The position numbers and the translations under genes were made by a program. A stretch of DNA of 64,000 nucleotides from Hyalangium ruber (lineage in GTDB: Bacteria; Myxococcota; Myxococcia; Myxococcales; Myxococcaceae), in assembly GCF_034259325.1 (NCBI RefSeq), contig NZ_JAXIVS010000025.1, positions 1 to 64,000 on the forward strand, read 5' to 3'. Below the pieces are notes generated by a model that saw only the letters and a list, made by a program, of their open reading frames with translations, was not told the origin of the DNA and ran no database searches. This document shows positions 1,610 through 12,101 of the stretch, piece by piece (position 1 is the first letter of the stretch; the number at the start of each line of letters is the position of its first letter).

Positions 1610-3124
1610 TCAGTCGTTGCCGCCGCGGCCTCCACCACCGTTGCCGCCGCGGCCTCCACCGCCGTGGCCGCCACCGCCGCCGCCGCCATGGCCTCCACCA
1701 CCGCCGCCGCCGTGGCCGCCACCACCGTGGCCTCCACCTCCACCGCCACCGCCGTGGCCTCCACCGCCGTGGCCTCCACCGCCGTGACCATCGTTGGGGC
1801 AACCGTCACCATCGTGGTGACCGCCACCACCACCGTGGCCTCCACCGCCGTGGCCTCCACCGCCGTGGCCTCCACCGCCACCGCCGTGACCGTGGTCATC
1901 GTTGGGGCAACCGTCACCACCGTGGTGACCGCCACCACCACCGTGGCCGCCACCACCGTGGCCGCCACCACCGTGGCCACCGTTGGGGCAACCGTCACCA
2001 TCGTGGTGACCGCCGCCGCCACCACCGTGGCCGCCACCACCGTGGCCGCCACCACCGTGGCCGTGGTCATCGTTGGGGCAACCGCCATCATGACCACCAT
2101 TGCCGCCGTCAGGCGTACCACCACCATTGCCGCCGTCGGGCGTCCCCCCGCCATTGCCGCCGTCGGGCGTCCCCCCGTCATTGCCGCCGTCGGGCGTACC
2201 CGGAGGAGGAGTCGGCGGCGCCTGGCAGATGCTGTGCTCATCCAGCAGGTTGAGGTGGCCCTCGGCGTTGCCCGTCAGCGACCTGGCGTAGATGCCGCCA
2301 TCGAAGCTGCCGTTGGTGAAGTGGATGTCAGCGCGGGGCGCCAGCACCGTGCCCCAGAAGCCGAAGCCCTGGGCGGTGATGCTGGTGGTGTCCACGAAGT
2401 TGTAGAGCACGCCGTGCTGGTCGATGCCTCCGCCGAACTGGGTGGCGAAGCCGCCGAAGGTGGCCGAGGAACCGCGGATGTTGACCACCACGAAGGAGCC
2501 GGCCGGCGCTTCGATGGACCACAGCGCGGCGCCGGTGAAGTCACTGGCGTTCACGTCGAAGACGTTCCGCTGCGCATCCGTGCCGCGCAGCATGAGTCCG
2601 CCCCAATTCTCGCGCGTCGTGGTGCCGTTGGCCGTCAGGCCGGCCAGCTGTGTGGACAGGCTGAGCAGTTGGGCTGCGCGGGCGGTAAAGTCGATGGGCG
2701 AGCCCTGCGTCACAGTCCCGCGCGGGTAGACCACTGACGGGTCGGCGCTGTAGCTGCCTCCGTGCCACGTGTCACCCCAAACGCCGCCATTGGTGAGCGT
2801 CAGGTTGCCGCCCGCCACCAGCGTGTTGGCGATGTCCGTGGCCGGCAGCCTCCAGCCCACCGAGAAGTTGTCCATGGTGATGTTGCCAGCCGCCGCGACC
2901 TTGCCCTCCACGTCCGTGCCCAGGTTGTAGTCCCCGAGCAAGAACAGGTTGTAGTCATTCAAGCGGACCGTGACGACCGGGGATTCGGGCGGGCAAGCGT
3001 CGGCATCGTTGAGGTGGCCGCTATTCGCGCCAGCCCCCTGCGATTCATCTCCAGAACCCACCAGACCGCAGGCAGGGAGCGACAGCAGAGCGGCGGCCAA
3101 GGCAAACGCACGGAAAGCACGCAT
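1610..3124 (-). CDS. Choice-of-anchor A family surface lipoprotein with Gly/His/Cys-rich repeat tail
   Basis: 504 residues. The N-terminus has a lipoprotein signal (LPAC, Cys at about 19), so it is probably anchored to a membrane. The region from about 50 to 300 matches the choice-of-anchor A beta-helix-like domain: LNDYNLFLLGDYN, AAGNITMDNF, GLMLRGTD, VVVNIRGSS, FWGTVLAPRADI and GSFDGGIYA are characteristic. From about 310 onward there are PDGGN repeats, then about 190 residues of GGHGGGG repeats interrupted four times by DG(D/G)CPN(D/G) units rich in His and Asp. The tail is low complexity and could bind metal or crosslink through the spaced cysteines; that is inference. Upstream, 315 bases separate it from the divergent Hint gene. 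Function is unknown; members of this family are surface or matrix proteins. Confidence 0.85.
   Translation of the reverse strand: MRAFRAFALAAALLSLPACGLVGSGDESQGAGANSGHLNDADACPPESPVVTVRLNDYNLFLLGDYNLGTDVEGKVAAAGNITMDNFSVGWRLPATDIANTLVAGGNLTLTNGGVWGDTWHGGSYSADPSVVYPRGTVTQGSPIDFTARAAQLLSLSTQLAGLTANGTTTRENWGGLMLRGTDAQRNVFDVNASDFTGAALWSIEAPAGSFVVVNIRGSSATFGGFATQFGGGIDQHGVLYNFVDTTSITAQGFGFWGTVLAPRADIHFTNGSFDGGIYARSLTGNAEGHLNLLDEHSICQAPPTPPPGTPDGGNDGGTPDGGNGGGTPDGGNGGGTPDGGNGGHDGGCPNDDHGHGGGGHGGGGHGGGGGGHHDGDGCPNGGHGGGGHGGGGHGGGGGHHGGDGCPNDDHGHGGGGGGHGGGGHGGGGHGGGGGHHDGDGCPNDGHGGGGHGGGGHGGGGGGGGHGGGGHGGGGGGGHGGGGGGGHGGGGRGGNGGGGRGGND
1620..2190. repeat. Low-complexity tandem repeats inside the choice-of-anchor A gene
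   Basis: Direct repeats of CCACCACCG(TGGCC)-type units code for the Gly/His tail on the minus strand, with longer units of about 100 bases carrying a Cys-Pro-Asn motif. At 2097-2200 a second set, about 24 bases long, codes for PDGGN(G/D)GGT. Such repeats expand and contract easily, so tail length may vary between strains, and short-read assemblies may be wrong here. Confidence 0.8.
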
Positions 3125-3439: not shown

Positions 3440-4540
3440 ATGACAGGGAGAACTGTCGCTCAGGCCGTGCTTTACGCATCGCTTCTCGTACCAGCGGTTG
3501 CCAGTGCTCAGCCTATTCTCCAGCAGCGCTGCAGCCTCGACAACCTGGACAATGCCGCCGCCGAGTCCCGTGTCCACTGGGCCCGCCGTTGTGCTTTGAA
3601 CCAGCACGTCATGAGCCCCGCGCAGGGCTTCGATACGGGCATCCCGTCGTCCAACAACGCTGGCAACCTCATGGAGTACATCGAGGCAGACCTGGGCGCC
3701 AACTGGTCCGGGCAGAACTGCTACACCGGTCAGGCCGACGCCTACGAGGTCAACAGCTCCTTCGTCAACAAGATCTACCTCAGCGGCATCACCAACCAGT
3801 TCACGGATGGCGCGGGCTTCAAGTCGTGGCTGCGTCCGGCGACCCGGAAGAAGCCCCGCCCGCTCTACCCCACCTTCGGCAGCCAGTACGACATCTACAG
3901 CCCCAGCAACCTCCAGCTCTTCCCCCACCCCACGCTGGCGGACTGCAGGCTCTATCTGGACCGCAACGGCACCCAGCCGGCCACCGCCCACTCCTTCTAC
4001 ATCAACGGCTACTGCGAGGCCTCCTGCTATACCCCGGACCAGGCTCTGCTCTTCACGGATGGGTACAAGCCCATCCTTGAGGCGCTCGAGGATCGCCGCG
4101 AGGATCTCGTCACGCTGACGCCAGATTCCTCGCTCGACAACATCCAGCTCCAGCAGAACAAGACCTACAGCTACACCGCGGAGTTCCGGGACAGCACTCA
4201 CCCCATCATCGAGCTGCGCACCGCCTCTGGGGGATTGCTGCGCGTCACTACGGAGCACGCTGTCCTCAACAGCCAGGGCCGCATCGTGCAGGCGCAGACG
4301 CTGAAGGAGGGGGATGAACTGCTGAAGGCGGATGGCACTCCGGATCCCATCACCAGCGTCGAGAGGACCACCTACTTCGGCAAGGTCTACAACCTGCGCC
4401 CGGTCTCGACGGACCTCGTCTCCAACATCGTCATCGCCGAGGGCTATCTCGTCGGCTCCTCCTCCTACCAGAATGATGATGTGGGCTACATCAACCGCAT
4501 CATCATGCACAAGCAAGTGCCCCCAGAGCTCATTCCCTGA
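3440..4540 (+). CDS. Secreted Hint-domain protein (copy A)
   Basis: 366 residues. The ATG was chosen because AAGGAG lies 7 bases before it and the same start exists in the paralogue at 9559. Signal peptide to about residue 23 (ending ASAQP). Residues 24-190 form an unrecognised domain with several cysteines. Residues 196-345 look like a Hint (hedgehog/intein) domain: C196 followed by the 12-residue spacing to DG (CYTPDQALLFTDG), a TxxH block (LRVTTEHAVL, T270/H273), an INT-like GDELL block and the closing strand VYNL...NIVIAEGYLVG. The usual intein-terminal His-Asn is absent, so N-terminal cleavage or thioester chemistry is possible but C-terminal splicing is not expected. It opens the unusual cluster running to 10659. 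Biological role unknown. Confidence 0.8.
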   Translation: MTGRTVAQAVLYASLLVPAVASAQPILQQRCSLDNLDNAAAESRVHWARRCALNQHVMSPAQGFDTGIPSSNNAGNLMEYIEADLGANWSGQNCYTGQADAYEVNSSFVNKIYLSGITNQFTDGAGFKSWLRPATRKKPRPLYPTFGSQYDIYSPSNLQLFPHPTLADCRLYLDRNGTQPATAHSFYINGYCEASCYTPDQALLFTDGYKPILEALEDRREDLVTLTPDSSLDNIQLQQNKTYSYTAEFRDSTHPIIELRTASGGLLRVTTEHAVLNSQGRIVQAQTLKEGDELLKADGTPDPITSVERTTYFGKVYNLRPVSTDLVSNIVIAEGYLVGSSSYQNDDVGYINRIIMHKQVPPELIP

Positions 4541-4583
4541 GCCGCTGAGGCTCAGCCGACGCCTCGCCGGCTGAGAAGTACCG

Positions 4584-4618
4584 GGAGGTGAGGAGAGTCC
4601 CTGGCTCTCCTTGCCTCC
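4584..4618 (+). terminator. Hairpin after the first Hint gene
   Basis: An imperfect stem of about 14 pairs (GGAGG..GGAGAG against CTCTCC..CCTCC) with a 7-base loop, 43 bases after the stop codon. There is no T-run, so it may act as a weak or protein-dependent terminator, or protect the RNA end. Confidence 0.4.
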
Positions 4619-4639
4619 GATTCCTTCACACACCCCTTG

Positions 4640-4700
4640 TGCTAATTTTTCTTCACTTTCCGTCTTGACTGGAGAATCCGGTTTTAGAGAAGCTATGCCC
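4640..4700 (+). promoter_or_regulatory. Possible promoter for the Hint lipoprotein gene
   Basis: An AT-rich patch in the 231-base gap contains TTGACT at 4665-4670, close to a sigma-70 -35 box. No convincing -10 box sits at 16-18 bases, so this is only a candidate. Confidence 0.25.
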
Positions 4701-4771
4701 CGCCCAAGTCGTGGCAGCCTCTGCACAGGCAAGCCACTCATCGCGGGCACACCAAGAAAGCGGAGGCCTCA

Positions 4772-5614
<843 letters not shown>

Positions 5615-5629
5615 TCCTGCTCGGGTTCT

Positions 5630-5686
5630 GCTGCCGACGAGCGCGATTCCCTTCGGGGAGCGCCTCGTCGGCAGCGCTCTTTTCCC
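5630..5686 (+). terminator. Intrinsic terminator-like hairpin
   Basis: GCTGCCGACGAGCGC pairs with GCGC(C)TCGTCGGCAGC (one bulge, loop of about 15), followed by GCTCTTTTCCC. It lies only 12 bases before the ATG of the next gene, so it may end the Hint lipoprotein transcript or act as an internal attenuator of the cluster. Confidence 0.65.
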
Positions 5687-5697
5687 AAAGGTCTCCC

Positions 5698-6567
5698 ATG
5701 GCATCCAGCAAGCGGCAGTGGCTCGGCATCCTGGTGGCGGTCGTCGCCTCTCTCGTTGCGCTTGGCGCCGTCTTGTTATGGCTGCCCGACAAGCAGCCCT
5801 CTGGCCCCCCAGCGGAGCACTCGAAGTCCCAGGCCGAGGCCCGGCCCGCGGGGGCCTCCCCGGCATCCCCCAAGGCACCAGACCCCGGCGTCGAGCACGC
5901 CACGGGCATCCCCGCGCAGGCGCGCGCTCGCCTGGATGGCAAGGCCACGGAGCTCGCCCAGCAGCGGCTGGAGCAACTGCCGAACCCCGCCGTGCAAGAC
6001 AGTATCGGCGGCTTCTCCAAGCAAGACCTGGAGCAAGTCCTCGGCAGCTATCGTGAGATGAAGGCCGTCCAGGGGCTGTACAACCAGCGCGTCGAGCGCG
6101 AGCGCCACGTGAAGAAGATCCTCGAGAGCCCCCACGGCGTGGCCATTGCCTCGAAGTCCCTGACGGACTTCACCTTCGCGCAAGAGGCCTTCGGTGAGTT
6201 CCAGGCCGAGGCCCGCTATTTCTCGATCGACGTGCTGAAGGCGACCTCGAGCCAGGGCAACCATGAGCCGCTCATGAGCACCGCCAGCCAGCTCGCCCAG
6301 CAGTTCGCCCTGCTCAGCGCTGACTCCGAAGGCTTCAAGAAAGGACGCCGCGAGGATCTCTATGATGTGCTCACCGCATACATCGATGTGGTGGGAGAGG
6401 ACTTCCTGTCCAGCGCGGACATGAAGGTCATGCAGCAGCTGGGCTACACGCCCCAACTGCCAGCCCACGTCCGGAAGGTCTACGACGACGCCCTGTTCTT
6501 CCGCCTCAATGTCAAGTTTGGCCGCCAGCGCGCTGTCGCCATCACCTCCTCACTGCTCGGCGAGTGA
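5698..6567 (+). CDS. Membrane-anchored protein of the Hint cluster, unknown function
   Basis: 289 residues, no family recognised. Lysine/arginine-rich start, one membrane helix at about residues 8-29, then a Pro/Ala-rich linker to about 65, then a mostly helical, charged domain (repeated Gln/Glu/Lys, e.g. QRLEQLPN, QDLEQVLGSYREM, VERERHVKK). The domain should face the periplasm or outside. Its stop codon is 4 bases before the ATG of the subtilase-like gene, which points to translational coupling and a shared job. It could be a scaffold, chaperone or propeptide-like inhibitor for the protease-like lipoproteins, but nothing in the sequence proves that. Confidence 0.7.
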   Translation: MASSKRQWLGILVAVVASLVALGAVLLWLPDKQPSGPPAEHSKSQAEARPAGASPASPKAPDPGVEHATGIPAQARARLDGKATELAQQRLEQLPNPAVQDSIGGFSKQDLEQVLGSYREMKAVQGLYNQRVERERHVKKILESPHGVAIASKSLTDFTFAQEAFGEFQAEARYFSIDVLKATSSQGNHEPLMSTASQLAQQFALLSADSEGFKKGRREDLYDVLTAYIDVVGEDFLSSADMKVMQQLGYTPQLPAHVRKVYDDALFFRLNVKFGRQRAVAITSSLLGE

Positions 6568-6571
6568 GCTC

Positions 6572-7960
6572 ATGTCCCGCTCGTGCGTTCTCTCGGTCCT
6601 GGTGGTCTTCCTCGGCCTCGCCGGGTGCGGTGGTGAAGAACCACCCCCGATTCCCGACCCTCCTGATCCGGGCGAAGGAGAGACCTCGCTCGAGAAGCAG
6701 ATGGGTAGCGCTCTGACTGCCATTGAGGAGCAAAGAAGCACCTGCATTCGGGAGCCCACAGCCCCGTCCTGCCAGCCGCAGGCCTTTCGCTTCGATCCCG
6801 CCACTCAGTTCAACATGGCTCACGCCACGGATGAGGCCATCCTGATCGTGGATGAGTTCTCGAAGCTGCCCCTCCGGACCGTTCGTTACCAGAACCGTCT
6901 CAAGGGGTACCTGAGAGCCGAGGCGGGAGGAGACATCCGCCCAGTCCAGTTCGACTGGAGCATGCAGGCCACGCTCTTCTCCGTGCTCAAGCAGTTCGCT
7001 ACCCCTGATCTCATTCCCGCCGCGGCGCTCCGAAAGCTCAGTGAGCCCCTTCACAGAGCCTTCCCCCCAGGGGCCGAAAACGTCGGACACGGGAGCATCG
7101 TCTTCTCCCTGCTCATCGAGGCCAACCCCCGCCAACCCATCGTGGTGCTGGATCGGCCCACCTTGCATGGAATCGCTCTCGCGGAGTTCTGTGATGCCAC
7201 GGGTGCGAGTCACCCGGCGCTGTTCGACAAGTCCGAGCACGCGGCCAGTGAGCTGGTGCGCATCATGCGCGAGCACAACGTCCGCTTCGTGAACGTAAGC
7301 TTCGGGGAAACCCTCGAGACGATTCAAGGCAGCTGGCAGACCGTCTGTACGGGGAGCCTGCCCAGCGATGAGCTCCTACGTGAGAAGCTGGCGGCCTATG
7401 CCCCCATCGTCAAGGCCCTCACCGGCACGCCCGGGGTCTTCGCCGCTCAAGCGGCGATCGATGCCTCGAATCCTCGAGACTTCCCATATGACTTCCCCTC
7501 CCAGGACTACCCGAATCGGGTACTCGCCGGCTTCTTCACCTCGCTCGACTCAGGGCTCGACGCTCAGGGCCAAGGCGACTCCGGCTCGCTGGTGGGCTGG
7601 CCCGAGCGCCAGAATGTAGACATCTACCTGAACAGTGGCGTGCTTCCGCAGCGCCCCTTCCCTCACAATCGGACCCCTCTGCTTCAGGTGGATGGGTTCG
7701 GTGTCGACATCTATCCGATCGCCTCCACTGCCACCTCCTGGATCGCGCCACTGGCGCTCTCGCGCTTCATCCACTTGCGATACTCAAGCTTTGAGAGTCG
7801 CACGATGGATGATGCGTTGATTTCTGAGATTCGCGGCCAGATGGTGCCCGCGGCATGTGGTCAGTCCAGCGAGGCCTGCGTCTATCAGGATCCCTTGCTC
7901 CACGGGCAAATCGAGGCCGTGCGTCTCGGCTACTGGAGTCGCCAGTACGTCTCGCCGTGA
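6572..7960 (+). CDS. Divergent subtilase-like (S8-fold) lipoprotein, copy 1
   Basis: 462 residues, lipobox LAGC (Cys19). Segments follow subtilase order: ILIVDEF (D94, like the catalytic Asp strand), NVGHGSIVF (H173, like GHGTHV), VRFVNVSFGE (like INLSLG), PGVFAAQAA (the AAGN region), RVLAGFFTSLD (like AVGAVD) and TATSWIAPLAL (S389, like GTSMAAP). Spacings of 79 and 216 residues are larger than in subtilisin, mostly because of inserts. The oxyanion Asn is not seen; Gln/Ala stand there. So it is either a divergent peptidase or a protease-fold protein with altered chemistry. It overlaps no gene but is coupled to the preceding membrane protein, and is paralogous to the next gene. Codon use is less G/C-ending than in the housekeeping genes. 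Confidence 0.65.
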   Translation: MSRSCVLSVLVVFLGLAGCGGEEPPPIPDPPDPGEGETSLEKQMGSALTAIEEQRSTCIREPTAPSCQPQAFRFDPATQFNMAHATDEAILIVDEFSKLPLRTVRYQNRLKGYLRAEAGGDIRPVQFDWSMQATLFSVLKQFATPDLIPAAALRKLSEPLHRAFPPGAENVGHGSIVFSLLIEANPRQPIVVLDRPTLHGIALAEFCDATGASHPALFDKSEHAASELVRIMREHNVRFVNVSFGETLETIQGSWQTVCTGSLPSDELLREKLAAYAPIVKALTGTPGVFAAQAAIDASNPRDFPYDFPSQDYPNRVLAGFFTSLDSGLDAQGQGDSGSLVGWPERQNVDIYLNSGVLPQRPFPHNRTPLLQVDGFGVDIYPIASTATSWIAPLALSRFIHLRYSSFESRTMDDALISEIRGQMVPAACGQSSEACVYQDPLLHGQIEAVRLGYWSRQYVSP

Positions 7961-8083
7961 GTTGATCTCCATTCACGATTAGATTGATTTTCCGTCTTTT
8001 CTGACTTGCCAGTTATTGCTGGTTCTGAGATGTTATCAGAACACTTGGCAATGGTAGCCTCCCTTTCTAGGCGAGAAACACTC

Positions 8084-9487
8084 ATGTCTCGTTCGTCCCT
8101 GCGGGCAGTCCTGGTGTCCTTCTTTGGTCTCGTCGGGTGTGGTGGCGAAGACTTCCTTCTTCCTCAGAATGAGCAGCCCGCCGAGTCAGCCGCGGAGTCA
8201 GTCGGCGTGCTCTCGCTGCAGCAGAAGATCACGGATGCGCTCGGTCAGATCAGCAGGCACAAGCAGATCTGCACCGAGAATCCGTCAAGCTCGATCTGCC
8301 AGTCGCGGCCCTTTCTCTACAATCCCAACGACTTCAACATGGCCCCCAATGCGGGCGAGGCCATCTTGATCGTGGATGAGTTCCCGAAGTTGCCCCTGCG
8401 CGCCATCCGCTACAAGAACCGTATCAAGGAGTACCTGAGGGCCCAAGCAGGGGGAGACATTGGCGCAGTCCTGTTTAGCTGGAACGTGCCGCCAGCGCTT
8501 TCCAACACGCTCAAGTCGTTCGCTGAGCCTGATCTCATTCCCGCCGAGTCGCTGAGGCCGCTCAGTGCTCCGCTCTACGAGTCCTTCGGCTACCTGAACC
8601 TGGATAACTTCGGGCACGGGAGCATCGTCTTCTCCCTGCTCATCGAGGCCAACCCCCGCCAGCCCATCGTGGTGCTGGATCGGCCCACCCTGCATGGAAT
8701 CGCTCCCACGGAGTTCTGCGATGCCACAGGTGCGAGTCACGAGGCGCTGCTCGACAAGTCCGAGCACGCGGCCAGTGAGCTGGTGCGCATCATGAACGAG
8801 CACAACGTTCGTTTCGTGAACCTGAGCTTCGGGGAGACCTTCGAGACAATCCGGGGCAAGTGGCAGAGTGCCTGCACGGGAAGCCTGCCCAGCGATGAGA
8901 TCCTGCGTGAGAAGCTGGCGGCCTATGCCCCCATCGTCGAGGCCCTCACCGGCACGCCCGGGGTCTTCGCCGCTCAGGCGGCGATCAATGCCTCGAATCC
9001 TCAAGACTTCCCGTATGACTTCCCCTCCCAGGACTACCCGAACCGGATGCTCGCGGGGTATTTCACCTCGCTCGACTCGGGGCTCAATGAGCAGGGCCAA
9101 GGCAACTCCGGCTCGCTGGTGGGCTGGCCCCAGCGCCAGAATGTAGACATCTACCTGAACAGTGGCGTGCTTCCGCAGCGTCCCTTCCCGTACAATGAGA
9201 CCCCTCTGCTTCAGGTGGATGGGTTCGGCGTCGACATCTATCCGGTGTCCGCCACCACTACGTCTTGGATTACCCCGCTGGCGCTCTCGCGCTTCATCCA
9301 CGTGCGGAACGCGACCTTCGGGACCAACGAGATGAGCGATCTGCTGATCTCCGCGATTCGCACCAATATGGTGCCAAAGGTTTGTGGCCAGCCCGCCGCG
9401 ACTTGCGTCTTCCAGGATCCGCTGCTCCACGGGCAGATCGAGGCCGTGCGCCTCAACTACCGGAGCCGCGAGTTTCAGGAGCCCTGA
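8084..9487 (+). CDS. Divergent subtilase-like (S8-fold) lipoprotein, copy 2
   Basis: 467 residues, tandem paralogue of the preceding gene. The internal ATG at 8084 (MSRSSLRA) was chosen over upstream in-frame codons because it aligns with the paralogue and gives a proper lipoprotein signal (LVGC, Cys19). The triad candidates are D98 (LIVDEF), H178 (FGHGS) and S394 (TTTSWITP). The centre is nearly identical to copy 1, while the linker after the lipobox and the C-terminus differ. The 123-base gap before it is AT-rich and may contain its own promoter. Probably exported and lipid-anchored. Proteolytic activity is inferred from motif order only. Confidence 0.65.
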   Translation: MSRSSLRAVLVSFFGLVGCGGEDFLLPQNEQPAESAAESVGVLSLQQKITDALGQISRHKQICTENPSSSICQSRPFLYNPNDFNMAPNAGEAILIVDEFPKLPLRAIRYKNRIKEYLRAQAGGDIGAVLFSWNVPPALSNTLKSFAEPDLIPAESLRPLSAPLYESFGYLNLDNFGHGSIVFSLLIEANPRQPIVVLDRPTLHGIAPTEFCDATGASHEALLDKSEHAASELVRIMNEHNVRFVNLSFGETFETIRGKWQSACTGSLPSDEILREKLAAYAPIVEALTGTPGVFAAQAAINASNPQDFPYDFPSQDYPNRMLAGYFTSLDSGLNEQGQGNSGSLVGWPQRQNVDIYLNSGVLPQRPFPYNETPLLQVDGFGVDIYPVSATTTSWITPLALSRFIHVRNATFGTNEMSDLLISAIRTNMVPKVCGQPAATCVFQDPLLHGQIEAVRLNYRSREFQEP

Positions 9488-9558
9488 GTCTCAGTGTTCG
9501 CCGTGCCCCGTCATGACGGTCAGAACCCACGTTCTACCTCCAACGAAGGAGTCGTGAG

Positions 9559-10659
9559 ATGGCAGCAAGATCTGTTGTTCAGGCCATGCTCTATGCGTCG
9601 CTGGTCCTGCCAGCGCTTGCCGGTGCTCAGCCCATTCTGTTGCAGCGCTGCACCGCTGACGGCCTGGACGCTGCGGGAGCCGAGGCGCGCGTCCACTGGG
9701 CCCGCCGGTGCGCGCTAACGCTGCACGTCGTCTACCCCAGCCTGGGTTGGGACACCGGTATGCCTTCGGCAAACAATGCCGGTAACCTCATCGAATACAC
9801 GGAGGCCGACCCCAGCAGCAACTGGTCGGGCCAGAACTGTTACACGGGCCAGAGTGACTCATACGATGTCAACTTCTCCTTCGTCAGCAAGCTCTTCCTC
9901 TCCGGCCCGACCAACCAGTACACAGATGGCGCTGGCTTCAAGTCGTGGTTGCGGAGTGCAGCCCGGAAGAAGGCTCGCCCCCTCTATCCTATCTTCGGCA
10001 GCAGCTACGACATCTACAGCACCGGCAATCGCCAGCTCTTCCCTCACCCCACGCTGACCAACTGCACGCTCTACCTGGACCGCAACGGCACCCAGCCTGC
10101 CACCGGCTATAACTTCTTCCTCAATGGCTACTGCGAGAACGCCTCCTTCACTCCGGAGCAGAAGGTGCTCTTCTCGGATGGCTCGATGCCCATCGTCGAT
10201 GCGGTCAAGTCCCTCCGAGAGGACCTCGTCACCCTGACGCCCAACTCCACTCTCGACACCGTTCGGCTTCAGCAGAATCAGACCTATAGCTACACCGCGG
10301 ACTTCCGGGACAGCACTCACTCCATCCTCGAGCTGCGCACTGCCTCCGGCGGCTTGCTGCGGGTCACCGAGGAGCACGCCATCATCAATAGCGAGGGCCG
10401 CATGGTTTCGGCTCAGACGTTGAAGGTGGGCGATGAGCTCCTGACGATGGAGGGCACCCGCGACCCCCTCGTCAGCATTGAGAAGACCACCCACTACGGC
10501 AAGGTCTACAACCTGCGCCCGACCTCTTCGGATCTCGTCTCCAACATCCTCGTCGCCGAGGGCTATCTGGTCGGCTCTTCTGCCTTCCTGAATGATGAGA
10601 TTGGCTATCTCAACCGCATCGTCCTCCACAAGCAGATCCCCCCCGAGCTCATCCCCTGA
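9559..10659 (+). CDS. Secreted Hint-domain protein (copy A', Ser nucleophile)
   Basis: 366 residues, same length and fully collinear with the protein at 3440. Signal peptide to about residue 23 (LAGAQP); AAGGAG stands before the ATG. The N-domain keeps GQNCYTG, GAGFKSWLR and YLDRNGTQPAT. In the Hint domain the first residue is S196 (SFTPEQKVLFSDG) instead of Cys; the TxxH block is RVTEEHAII (T270, H273) and the end NILVAEGYLVG. Ser at position 1 is allowed in inteins, so the domain may still make an ester rather than a thioester. It lies 71 bases after the second subtilase-like gene; a 12-base palindrome (CCGTCATGACGG, 9508-9519) is in that gap. Role unknown. Confidence 0.8.
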   Translation: MAARSVVQAMLYASLVLPALAGAQPILLQRCTADGLDAAGAEARVHWARRCALTLHVVYPSLGWDTGMPSANNAGNLIEYTEADPSSNWSGQNCYTGQSDSYDVNFSFVSKLFLSGPTNQYTDGAGFKSWLRSAARKKARPLYPIFGSSYDIYSTGNRQLFPHPTLTNCTLYLDRNGTQPATGYNFFLNGYCENASFTPEQKVLFSDGSMPIVDAVKSLREDLVTLTPNSTLDTVRLQQNQTYSYTADFRDSTHSILELRTASGGLLRVTEEHAIINSEGRMVSAQTLKVGDELLTMEGTRDPLVSIEKTTHYGKVYNLRPTSSDLVSNILVAEGYLVGSSAFLNDEIGYLNRIVLHKQIPPELIP

Positions 10660-10826: not shown

Positions 10827-12101
10827 ATGTCGAAGCAGAGCATCCTTCGCGTGGCGGTATCTGGAGCCATGCTGGGGCTGGTGGGCTGTAACGGAACCCT
10901 CGAGCGGGAGGAAGCGGTAGCGCCGGTCTCCCGTGAGGCGGATGTGCGGACGAACGCGCCCTTCAGTCCCGCGCGGAACAGGACGCTGGATGATGCGCTC
11001 CTGCAGGTCGAGGCCGACGTCCCTGGCTTCGGGGGCATGTACTACGACGAGAAGGGCCGGCTCGTCGTGCGCATGGTCCACACGGCGCCCGCCTCCGCAG
11101 CCCTCGCCGCCGAGCGCGCCATCACCTCGGTGTTCGGGAAGGAGAAGGTACCGGCGGAGGGAATGGTGATGGAGCCGGCGACCCGCACCTTCGCGCAGCT
11201 CAAGGCGCTGCAAGAGCGCATCACCCCCGACGTTCTGTCCCAGGCGGGCGTCGTGCTCACGGACGTGGATGAGAAGACGAACCGCGTCGCCATTGGCATC
11301 GAGCGCGCGGCGGCGCGGCCGGGCATCGAGAAGGCCATCGATCGGCTGGGTGTGGCGCGCGACGCCTTCGACATCGTCGAGGTGGGCCCCGTCCTCCCGG
11401 CGAACGTGCAGGGTGCCTGGCGGCCCATCACCGGAGGGATCCAGATTGAAACGCCGGGCAAATACTGCACCCTCGGCTTCGCTGCGCTCCAGGGCGGCAC
11501 GCTCGGCTTCGTGACCAACTCGCACTGCACCCAGACCCAGGGTGGCGTCGAGTACACGCCCGCCTATCAGGCCGTCTACCCCGACCATGCCGGCACGGAG
11601 ATCTCCGACCCGTATTACAGCAGCGGAGGCAGCTGCCCGGCGGGGCGCATCTGCCGCTACAGCGACAGCGCCTTCTTCAGCACCAGCACGACGGTCAACC
11701 CGCTCGTGGCGATGACGCCCGGCGCCTTCAACCTGGGCATCTCCAGTTGGCTGAATGTGCCCGGCAAGGTGCTCTACCCCTCGCAAGGGCAGGTCGTCCA
11801 CAAGACGGGCCGCACCAGCGGCACCACCAGTGGCACCATCGAGTGGGCGTGTGCCACGGTCAACTCGGGTGGCGGGGCGCACACCTACTTCTGCAACTAC
11901 ATCGCCACCAGTCCCCAGCAGAATGGGGCCGGCGGTGACAGCGGCTCACCCGTGTACATCCTGTCGGGAAACAACGCCTGGCTCACGGGCCTGATGTGGG
12001 GCGCGGGCTCCAACCCGTGGCACTTCGCCTTCGCTCCGCTGGGCTCCGTCCAGAACGAGCTGGGCATCGTCCCCTACTGCCAGGGCTTCGTGGGCTGCTG
12101 A
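10827..12101 (+). CDS. Trypsin-fold (S1/alpha-lytic-like) serine protease lipoprotein
   Basis: 424 residues from MSKQSILR; an upstream start at 10794 would spoil the signal sequence. Lipobox LVGC (Cys20). Residues 30-200 look like a propeptide (helical, charged, ITSVFGKEKV). The protease domain starts near ITGGIQI, with catalytic His in TNSHCT, Asp in RYSDSAFF and Ser in GAGGDSGSPVY; paired cysteines fit an extracellular enzyme. The layout resembles streptogrisin/alpha-lytic protease precursors. It follows the Hint/subtilase cluster in the same direction after 167 bases, so it may belong to it or be an independent predatory protease. Confidence 0.85.
   Translation: MSKQSILRVAVSGAMLGLVGCNGTLEREEAVAPVSREADVRTNAPFSPARNRTLDDALLQVEADVPGFGGMYYDEKGRLVVRMVHTAPASAALAAERAITSVFGKEKVPAEGMVMEPATRTFAQLKALQERITPDVLSQAGVVLTDVDEKTNRVAIGIERAAARPGIEKAIDRLGVARDAFDIVEVGPVLPANVQGAWRPITGGIQIETPGKYCTLGFAALQGGTLGFVTNSHCTQTQGGVEYTPAYQAVYPDHAGTEISDPYYSSGGSCPAGRICRYSDSAFFSTSTTVNPLVAMTPGAFNLGISSWLNVPGKVLYPSQGQVVHKTGRTSGTTSGTIEWACATVNSGGGAHTYFCNYIATSPQQNGAGGDSGSPVYILSGNNAWLTGLMWGAGSNPWHFAFAPLGSVQNELGIVPYCQGFVGC

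Follow-up and report, generated by a model that had tools for sequence, protein, structure and literature searches.

A recurring set of exported Hint proteins, a membrane partner and exchangeable proteases points to an unstudied protein-maturation module of myxobacteria

A subgroup of bacterial proteins with a C-terminal Hint-like domain, including STIAU_1829, MXAN_6253 and members from Photorhabdus, Serratia, Yersinia and Reinekea, was described by Buerglin in 2008 (PMC2362128), where an earlier sighting by Dassa and Pietrokovski is cited; the passages on the subgroup describe conserved upstream cysteines, of which two are stated, together with motifs A and B, and note secretion signals for some members. 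Proteins that probably belong to this subgroup are encoded by a six-gene cluster near the start of contig NZ_JAXIVS010000025.1 of Hyalangium ruber, the first 64,000 nt of which (hereafter the window) were studied by gene reading, profile and library searches, predicted structures and genome-neighbourhood comparison. The cluster comprises genes for two secreted Hint proteins (A1 and A2), a Hint lipoprotein (H2), a protein with one transmembrane segment (TM protein) and two divergent S8-like lipoproteins (S1 and S2). The assignment to the subgroup was made on its description rather than by alignment: a C-terminal Hint-like domain, motifs A and B, upstream cysteines and occurrence in myxobacteria are shared, whereas window-type Hint proteins have four upstream cysteines instead of the two stated, and the passages on the subgroup treat single proteins and mention no TM partner, protease or Hint-less relatives (PMC2362128).

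With Hedgehog and the nematode warthog and groundhog (Hog) proteins, the window proteins have in common a signal peptide (recognised here by eye), an N-domain and a C-terminal Hint domain with Cys1 and TxxH. Nematode Hedgehog-related families also include proteins consisting of an N-domain without Hint (PMC1636047), a feature shared by the present proteins, but the set described here is bacterial, has conserved gene neighbours and lacks a region of sterol-recognition size behind the Hint domain. Fold, Cys1 and block B are common to inteins and bacterial intein-like (BIL) domains; unlike inteins and type A BIL domains, the present Hint domains have neither the terminal His-Asn nor a C-extein. 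In the open-licence literature, searched by titles and abstract beginnings among the matches listed, no description was found of the gene module, of Hint-less forms ending at the Hint junction or of protease exchange. Thus, what was known is the myxobacterial C-terminal Hint subgroup of 2008, and what appears to be new is the module, the junction-ending Hint-less forms and the exchange of proteases.

A Hint protein, a helical protein with one TM segment and an exported protease or propeller make up a wider module, of which the window cluster represents one version. By sequence and model, its exported Hint proteins begin with a small N-domain, in which four cysteines are invariant, and continue into a Hint domain that has the residues for N-terminal cleavage and is without the terminal His-Asn. 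The one-TM gene directly follows the Hint gene, and at nearly all loci checked a gene for an exported protease or propeller lies beside them on the same strand. This recurring combination points to an unstudied bacterial protein-maturation module of myxobacteria.

Recurrence and exchange of partners

Among 96 genomes of the same family, the HintA profile matched in 55, some of these matches being to other Hint types, and the S8-like gene was found in 23, one of them doubtful (22 at a stricter threshold). The TM family of the window (family 1) was represented by 13 genes in 11 genomes, and all 13 were flanked by a Hint gene on one side and an S8-like gene on the other, the latter being broken at one locus (G059). 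Hint, TM and S8-like genes were thus adjacent at 12 loci besides the window, a repetition from which their adjacency is taken to be more than chance. The window TM protein had no Pfam match above cut-off; beyond the linker its sequence reads as helical.

A second TM family gave 36 matches in 28 genomes, and at 26 of the 30 for which loci were available and checked, a Hint gene lay within about 1.5 kb. The neighbour of these 26 Hint/TM pairs, referred to below as the client, was a true S8 protease at 10 loci, an SBBP propeller at 11 and another S8 type at 2; at the remaining 3, one of them at a contig end, none was recognised. Two of the four loci without Hint (L153 and L160) have a contig end on the Hint side. 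The source genome (10.77 Mb, 43 contigs) itself carries a second module on contig C11, encoding in gene direction HintA, the TM protein, two SBBP propeller proteins and HintA. A third variant, at four loci (L105-L108), consists of Hint, an M1-like lipoprotein, the TM protein and an M4 protease; the M1-like call, made by Pfam on L105 only, reached 25.9 bits, just below the cut-off of 27.7. In hhalign comparisons the second and third TM families were related at 93%, and the first and second at 43% (E 2.4e-4). The protease family is exchanged between loci, so that what looks constant is Hint together with TM, not the protease. The 40 regions compared were picked from the match lists as a non-exhaustive set, outside which stand the doubtful G046 and the genomes G060 and G069, where the S8-like gene is fragmentary. 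Co-occurrence in related genomes, on which the original prediction had staked its reading, was thus found, at 13 of 13 family-1 and 26 of 30 family-2 loci.

Protein distances in 12 triads were correlated at 0.945 for Hint and TM, 0.967 for Hint and S8-like and 0.935 for TM and S8-like, values that still contain the species tree, and for each pair none of 5000 permutations reached the observed value. The triad of L091, whose S8-like gene is truncated, was left out of the 13; triads designated 'b' were entered with the H2-type Hint instead of the HintA adjoining TM, and L074 was compared for its own two triads. One genome (L073) has two triads that are 47-53% identical to each other across the three genes, whereas identity reaches 59-66% between one of them and the L077 triad, and 65-74% between the other and the window triad, so that all three genes of each are nearer to a triad of another genome than to each other.

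At the scale of the phylum, 62 of 195 genomes gave a match to the Hint profile. The five outside the family all belong to one other family with genomes of 1.3-1.8 Mb, 73-99% complete and with 44-51% G+C in the fetched loci; they make up five of the 16 genomes of the order to which that family belongs, an order other than that of the window. Two of their loci (L176 and L177) show the order Hint, S8 protease, a relative of TM family 2 (2.3e-28 and 5.5e-24, respectively) and a large protein, which in L176 contains kelch repeats by Pfam. In L173 the Hint gene directly precedes the sole S8-like relative found outside the family among the 195 genomes.

Several other genes were noted at these loci. 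A membrane protein resembling HEAT/Vitellogenin_N (L005:6924-10321, L093:5579-8875 and similar loci) forms a family in 14 fetched loci, the Pfam assignment having been made on L093 only, and a secreted protein of no assigned family occurs at 12 such loci; 11 of each stand at loci with TM family 2 and may be further module parts. The reduced genomes also encode, close to their Hint genes, a secreted family of about 420 aa (L174:8623-9897, L175:5922-7184, L178:5877-7145), which hhalign relates at 97% to two larger proteins, in their N-terminal halves (L176:2783-5413, L177:4103-6652); it has something of the look of a pore-former, but it matched nothing in Pfam above cut-off, and that reading was set aside. 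Two closely similar HintA genes are located at contig starts of the source genome (C7:206-1318 and C11:283-1404); the assembly thus breaks there, and the two contigs may be neighbours.

Hint domains, N-domains and S8-like lipoproteins

Pfam and NCBIfam gave sub-threshold matches only for the Hint proteins. The nearest Pfam model was PT-HINT (PF07591; E 0.0022 for A1, 0.0045 for A2 and 0.21 for H2), with 18.7, 17.7 and 12.3 bits, respectively, all under the gathering score of 27.7. A Hint profile was seeded with five HintA proteins of the source genome and then refined; it matched A1, H2 and A2, which were among the refinement sequences, at 1.2e-74, 6.7e-55 and 3.6e-72, and a total of 59 proteins at the window start and in 44 fetched loci. 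Hint counts were taken from this profile because the 72-member BLAST cluster mixes Hint proteins, Hint-less N-domain proteins and proteins with CGDGxC repeats. The alignment held 58 of the 59 sequences, one of them clipped by a contig end, the partial L008 Hint being left out. The first Hint residue was Cys in 57 of 58 and Ser in A2; in block B, Thr was present in all 58 and His in 57, with Gln in the remaining one. These positions correspond to Cys196 and Thr270..His273 in A1, Cys117 and Thr192..His195 in H2, and Ser196 and Thr270..His273 in A2. The terminal His-Asn is absent from all three, with VG-S or VG-D in place, and the column aligned by eye with the penultimate His of inteins was Gly in all 57 readable sequences. 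No domain-sized sequence follows the Hint domain in A1, H2 or A2, about 23 residues remaining in A1 beyond the last structurally matched one.

The AlphaFold model of A1, built on nine sequences, had a mean predicted local distance difference test score (pLDDT) of 39.1. All 40 Foldseek matches of this model at E<=1e-3 were inteins, Hedgehog or BIL proteins, and the best matches by VIA were Hedgehog structures, 6tyy (Z 8.6, root-mean-square deviation 3.2 over 106 residues) and 1at0 (Z 8.4), with several inteins tied within 1 Z unit. The predicted Hint fold is thus supported by structure for A1, and A2 and H2 were assigned by profile. The Hint fold, the TxxH motif in all copies and the loss of the final His-Asn, all foreseen in the original prediction, were confirmed, the fold by the A1 model; retention of the first nucleophile held as Cys for A1 and H2, while A2 has it only as Ser.

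A different C-terminal Hint domain (Hom_end_hint 1.2e-6, below cut-off) was noticed in a 628-aa secreted protein on contig C5 of the source genome (L008:7559-9445, minus strand), and other genomes gave comparably weak matches, located within open frames 638-890 aa long.

In 13 HintA-type N-domains four cysteines are invariant (31, 51, 169 and 192 of A1), and they are also present in distant relatives. The N-domain matched nothing in PDB (best 0.08), and its best value against Pfam, 0.0045, came from one of 13 sequences, with no consistent match. Eleven proteins with an N-domain and no Hint were examined, and in six the C-terminus falls no more than about one residue from the bond predicted to be cut, ahead of Hint position 1: two end in CEASP and CVP, three with two N-domains in CESIY, CSAIY and CESVY, and one from a distant genome in CAE. 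The Cys at -4 is invariant in the 58 Hint proteins. As it is one of the four invariant N-domain cysteines and is kept where Hint is missing, a structural disulfide is likelier than a redox gate formed by Cys-4 and Cys1, and the latter was dropped. Cys-rich proteins with CGDGxC repeats were also seen near module genes (L090:9452-12388, minus strand; L106:4741-5691; L105:12083-12727; L108:4031-4771); most carry a lipobox, and the one in L106 is joined to a third-variant N-domain.

S1 and S2 matched nothing in Pfam or NCBIfam at E<=1, PF00082 included, and no PDB sequence was found for the S8-like family, either with one protein at E<=1 or with a 25-row profile at E<=10. A scan of genome contigs with S1 as sole query found no relative, and hhalign gave 2% against the true S8 proteases of neighbouring modules. 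An ordinary S8 identity by sequence found no support in hhalign or the PDB searches, and the assignment as subtilases follows from motifs and the fold model. Asp94, His173, Asn241 and Ser389 are invariant in 25 of the 26 S8-like sequences, those that were aligned (the truncated L091 gene was left out). The S1 model had a mean pLDDT of 72.4, with much of the core above 90 and 131 residues below 50. By Foldseek it gave kumamolisin (1.7e-3) and subtilisin (3.1e-3), none at E<=1e-3, with chitinases interleaved, mostly at low probability; by VIA, 4zoq was first (Z 12.5, deviation 4.8 over 238) and the best 50 rows were all of subtilase type (Z 10.8-12.5). Ser389 opens a helix (residues 388-406), and the triad was paired with that of subtilisin by motif and secondary structure. 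Fold, Asp-His-Ser order and Ser at a helix start are shared with S8 subtilases, including lanthipeptide leader proteases and mycosins; unlike these, the S8-like proteins are lipoproteins with extra invariant cysteines and without a Pfam S8 match. They retain N-x-S-x-G but appear to lack the motif of the oxyanion Asn, having an AA[QH]AA-like sequence instead, the candidate column near residue 293 being Q, H or N in the 25 sequences. A subtilase fold with a triad consistent with S8 is thus supported by the model, in agreement with the divergent S8-like lipoproteins originally proposed.

Layout of the cluster and neighbouring genes

The six-gene cluster of exported Hint and S8-like proteins is confirmed as real and correctly placed. 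Re-called coordinates (Table 1) agree with the six same-strand genes and gaps of 4-231 bases given before, the gaps from A1 through A2 being 231, 83, 4, 123 and 71 bases, and the composition proposed for the set was upheld by signals, profile, fold and triad. Judged by eye from the sequence, A1 and A2 have type-I signal peptides, H2, S1 and S2 have lipoboxes (AVGC, LAGC and LVGC, respectively), and the TM protein has a single hydrophobic segment at its N-terminus. G+C is 0.61-0.64 across 4-10 kb, versus 0.65-0.73 in the rest of the window. Two further lipoprotein genes lie near the cluster; for the one directly downstream of A2, no relative was marked in the maps of the compared loci.

Table 1. 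Genes of the cluster and two neighbouring genes in the window
Gene	Predicted product	Coordinates	Strand	Details
	Divergent choice-of-anchor A / ice-binding-like adhesive lipoprotein	1610-3124	-	Long Gly/His-rich tail
A1	Secreted N-domain with C-terminal Hint	3440-4540	+	366 aa; Hint domain starts at Cys196 (codon 4025-4027), after an N-domain of residues 1-195 (3440-4024)
H2	Lipoprotein with C-terminal Hint	4772-5614	+	280 aa; Cys117 codon 5120-5122
TM	One N-terminal TM segment and Pro/Ala-rich linker	5698-6567	+	289 aa
S1	Divergent subtilase lipoprotein	6572-7960	+	462 aa; Asp94 (6851-6853), His173 (7088-7090), Ser389 (7736-7738)
S2	Second S8-like lipoprotein copy	8084-9487	+	70% identical to S1
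A2	Second secreted N-domain and Hint protein	9559-10659	+	366 aa; 70% identical to A1; Ser196 codon 10144-10146
	Lipoprotein, sub-threshold similarity to Nal1/alpha-lytic-type serine proteases	10827-12101	+	Directly downstream of A2

Named relatives of S1 come from Myxococcus, Hyalangium, Corallococcus, Pyxidicoccus, an Archangium metagenome-assembled genome and one record titled Comamonas. The last (L119, BNCN01000015.1, 'Comamonas sp. KCTC 72670') is probably a wrongly named myxobacterium.

Proposed maturation role and alternative explanations

Because Hint and TM persist across loci at which the enzyme differs, the two are read as a pair with a carrier or maturation function, to which the hydrolase would be client, and a protein-maturation module with a Hint/TM core and an exchangeable hydrolase is put forward with about even confidence. 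By Hint chemistry, export would be followed by conversion of the peptide bond before Cys/Ser196 into a (thio)ester, and attack on this by water or a different nucleophile would release or transfer the N-domain; splicing is not expected, since there is neither a terminal His-Asn nor a C-extein. Six of the eleven Hint-less proteins stop at the predicted cut, which makes N-terminal, Hedgehog-like self-cleavage without splicing, an argument by analogy, the most likely reading. Of the extracellular self-processing device originally suggested, this leaves standing exported Hint proteins whose sequence suggests that they can cut themselves at the N-terminal junction. Within the presumed constant core, the TM protein may act as a membrane-held chaperone or escort in the periplasm, and the exchangeable hydrolase would be secreted or activated along with the N-domain, or would complete its release; in the window the clients would be the two divergent S8 lipoproteins. 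Lif foldases have an N-terminal TM segment, a Pro/Ala-rich linker and a helix-rich remainder, and their genes stand beside that of a secreted hydrolase; in these features the TM protein resembles them. However, the lipase chaperone family was not among the 12 Pfam families listed for 17 family-2/3 TM proteins at E<=10, nor did the window protein, taken for family 1, match it at E<=1, and these scans thus lend a Lif identity no sequence support. A more tentative proposal, possible but doubtful, is that these genes form a bacterial Hedgehog-type secretion and release system, common to Myxococcaceae and to a remote lineage with reduced genomes, in which an autoprocessing Hint precursor and a membrane-held chaperone would be the constant carrier and the hydrolases or propellers its interchangeable inserts.

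Several observations weigh against a maturation module of this kind. Family 1 is weakly similar to family 2, and the TM partner taken as constant may therefore comprise two separate families. L155 and L156 carry an S8 gene where Hint would stand. An intact S8-like gene without Hint or TM neighbour occurs in nine of 22 genomes of the family (G018, G022, G025, G028, G056-G058, G066 and G079), three of which (G025, G028 and G066) have no Hint match anywhere. Five of the eleven Hint-less N-domain proteins do not stop at the junction: two run on into PPC-type C-terminal parts (one proven PPC, the other its relative from L093), the L106 protein has its N-domain joined to CGDGxC repeats and two of the third variant extend about 25-40 residues past it (L105 and L108). 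The A1 model is poor overall, its N-domain lying below 50, the distance test had no unrelated-gene control, and self-cleavage is deduced here entirely from genes and models. In G057 and G058 the genes flanking the lone S8-like gene are those that enclose the complete G054 triad, and Hint and TM have therefore been lost or gained there. Since lone S8-like genes occur in nine genomes, the protease is not strictly dedicated; the 'dedicated proteases' of the original prediction thus agree with an S8-like gene beside every family-1 TM gene, but not with the lone genes or the exchange of protease families.

Instead of releasing the N-domain, the Hint domain could move it, as in Hedgehog, onto a lipid, glycan or surface amine, by which N-domains and possibly proteases would be attached to the surface or to vesicles. 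Cys1 and block B are kept with His-Asn lost, as in Hedgehog-type Hints, the N-domain precedes a C-terminal Hint as in Hedgehog, and Hedgehog structures headed the matches, with inteins tied. The tail behind the matched A1 Hint is too short for a sterol-recognition region, which disfavours such a region and makes ligation to sterol in particular improbable for lack of room. An Asp that, by eye, aligns with the sterol-activating Asp of Hedgehog is present in five HintA proteins and not in H2, which was also counted against ligation, and this explanation is considered rather unlikely.

A smaller chance is given to the S8-like and other proteases being processing enzymes with the Hint precursors as substrates. 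Adjacency and co-inheritance with Hint are in its favour, as is the top VIA match of S1, the lanthipeptide leader protease 4zoq with EpiP near, both tied with many S8 proteases; yet S8, M4 and M1-like enzymes are exchanged or replaced by propellers while Hint stays, and S8-like genes survive alone, so that processing is the weaker model compared with the client model. It is less probable still that the Hint domains are inactive, with a structural or binding role in an ordinary set of exported proteins: Ser at position 1 of A2 and Gln for the block-B His in one of 58 would fit, but in those sequences few positions of the domain are as well conserved as the catalytic ones, and the Hint-less proteins ending at the junction also argue otherwise. 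A polymorphic toxin is hardly credible, for PT-HINT, which would release a C-terminal toxin, is the nearest Pfam model but A1 stays under its curated cut-off, and the predicted domain order disfavours it, the Hint domain being C-terminal with nothing behind it, unlike polymorphic toxins, where toxin domains follow HINT in the arrangements described (PMC3482391).

The C-terminal Hint proteins of myxobacteria were described in 2008 as a Hint type without assignment (PMC2362128). Their genes are small and easily cloned, their partner set recurs, and several natural Hint-less copies agree with the predicted cut site, so that the chemistry becomes directly testable, namely whether hydrolysis or ligation takes place, what the ligation target is, and which of the two, Hint or protease, the TM protein serves. 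Ligation of the N-domain, if it takes place, would give Hedgehog modification a counterpart in bacteria.

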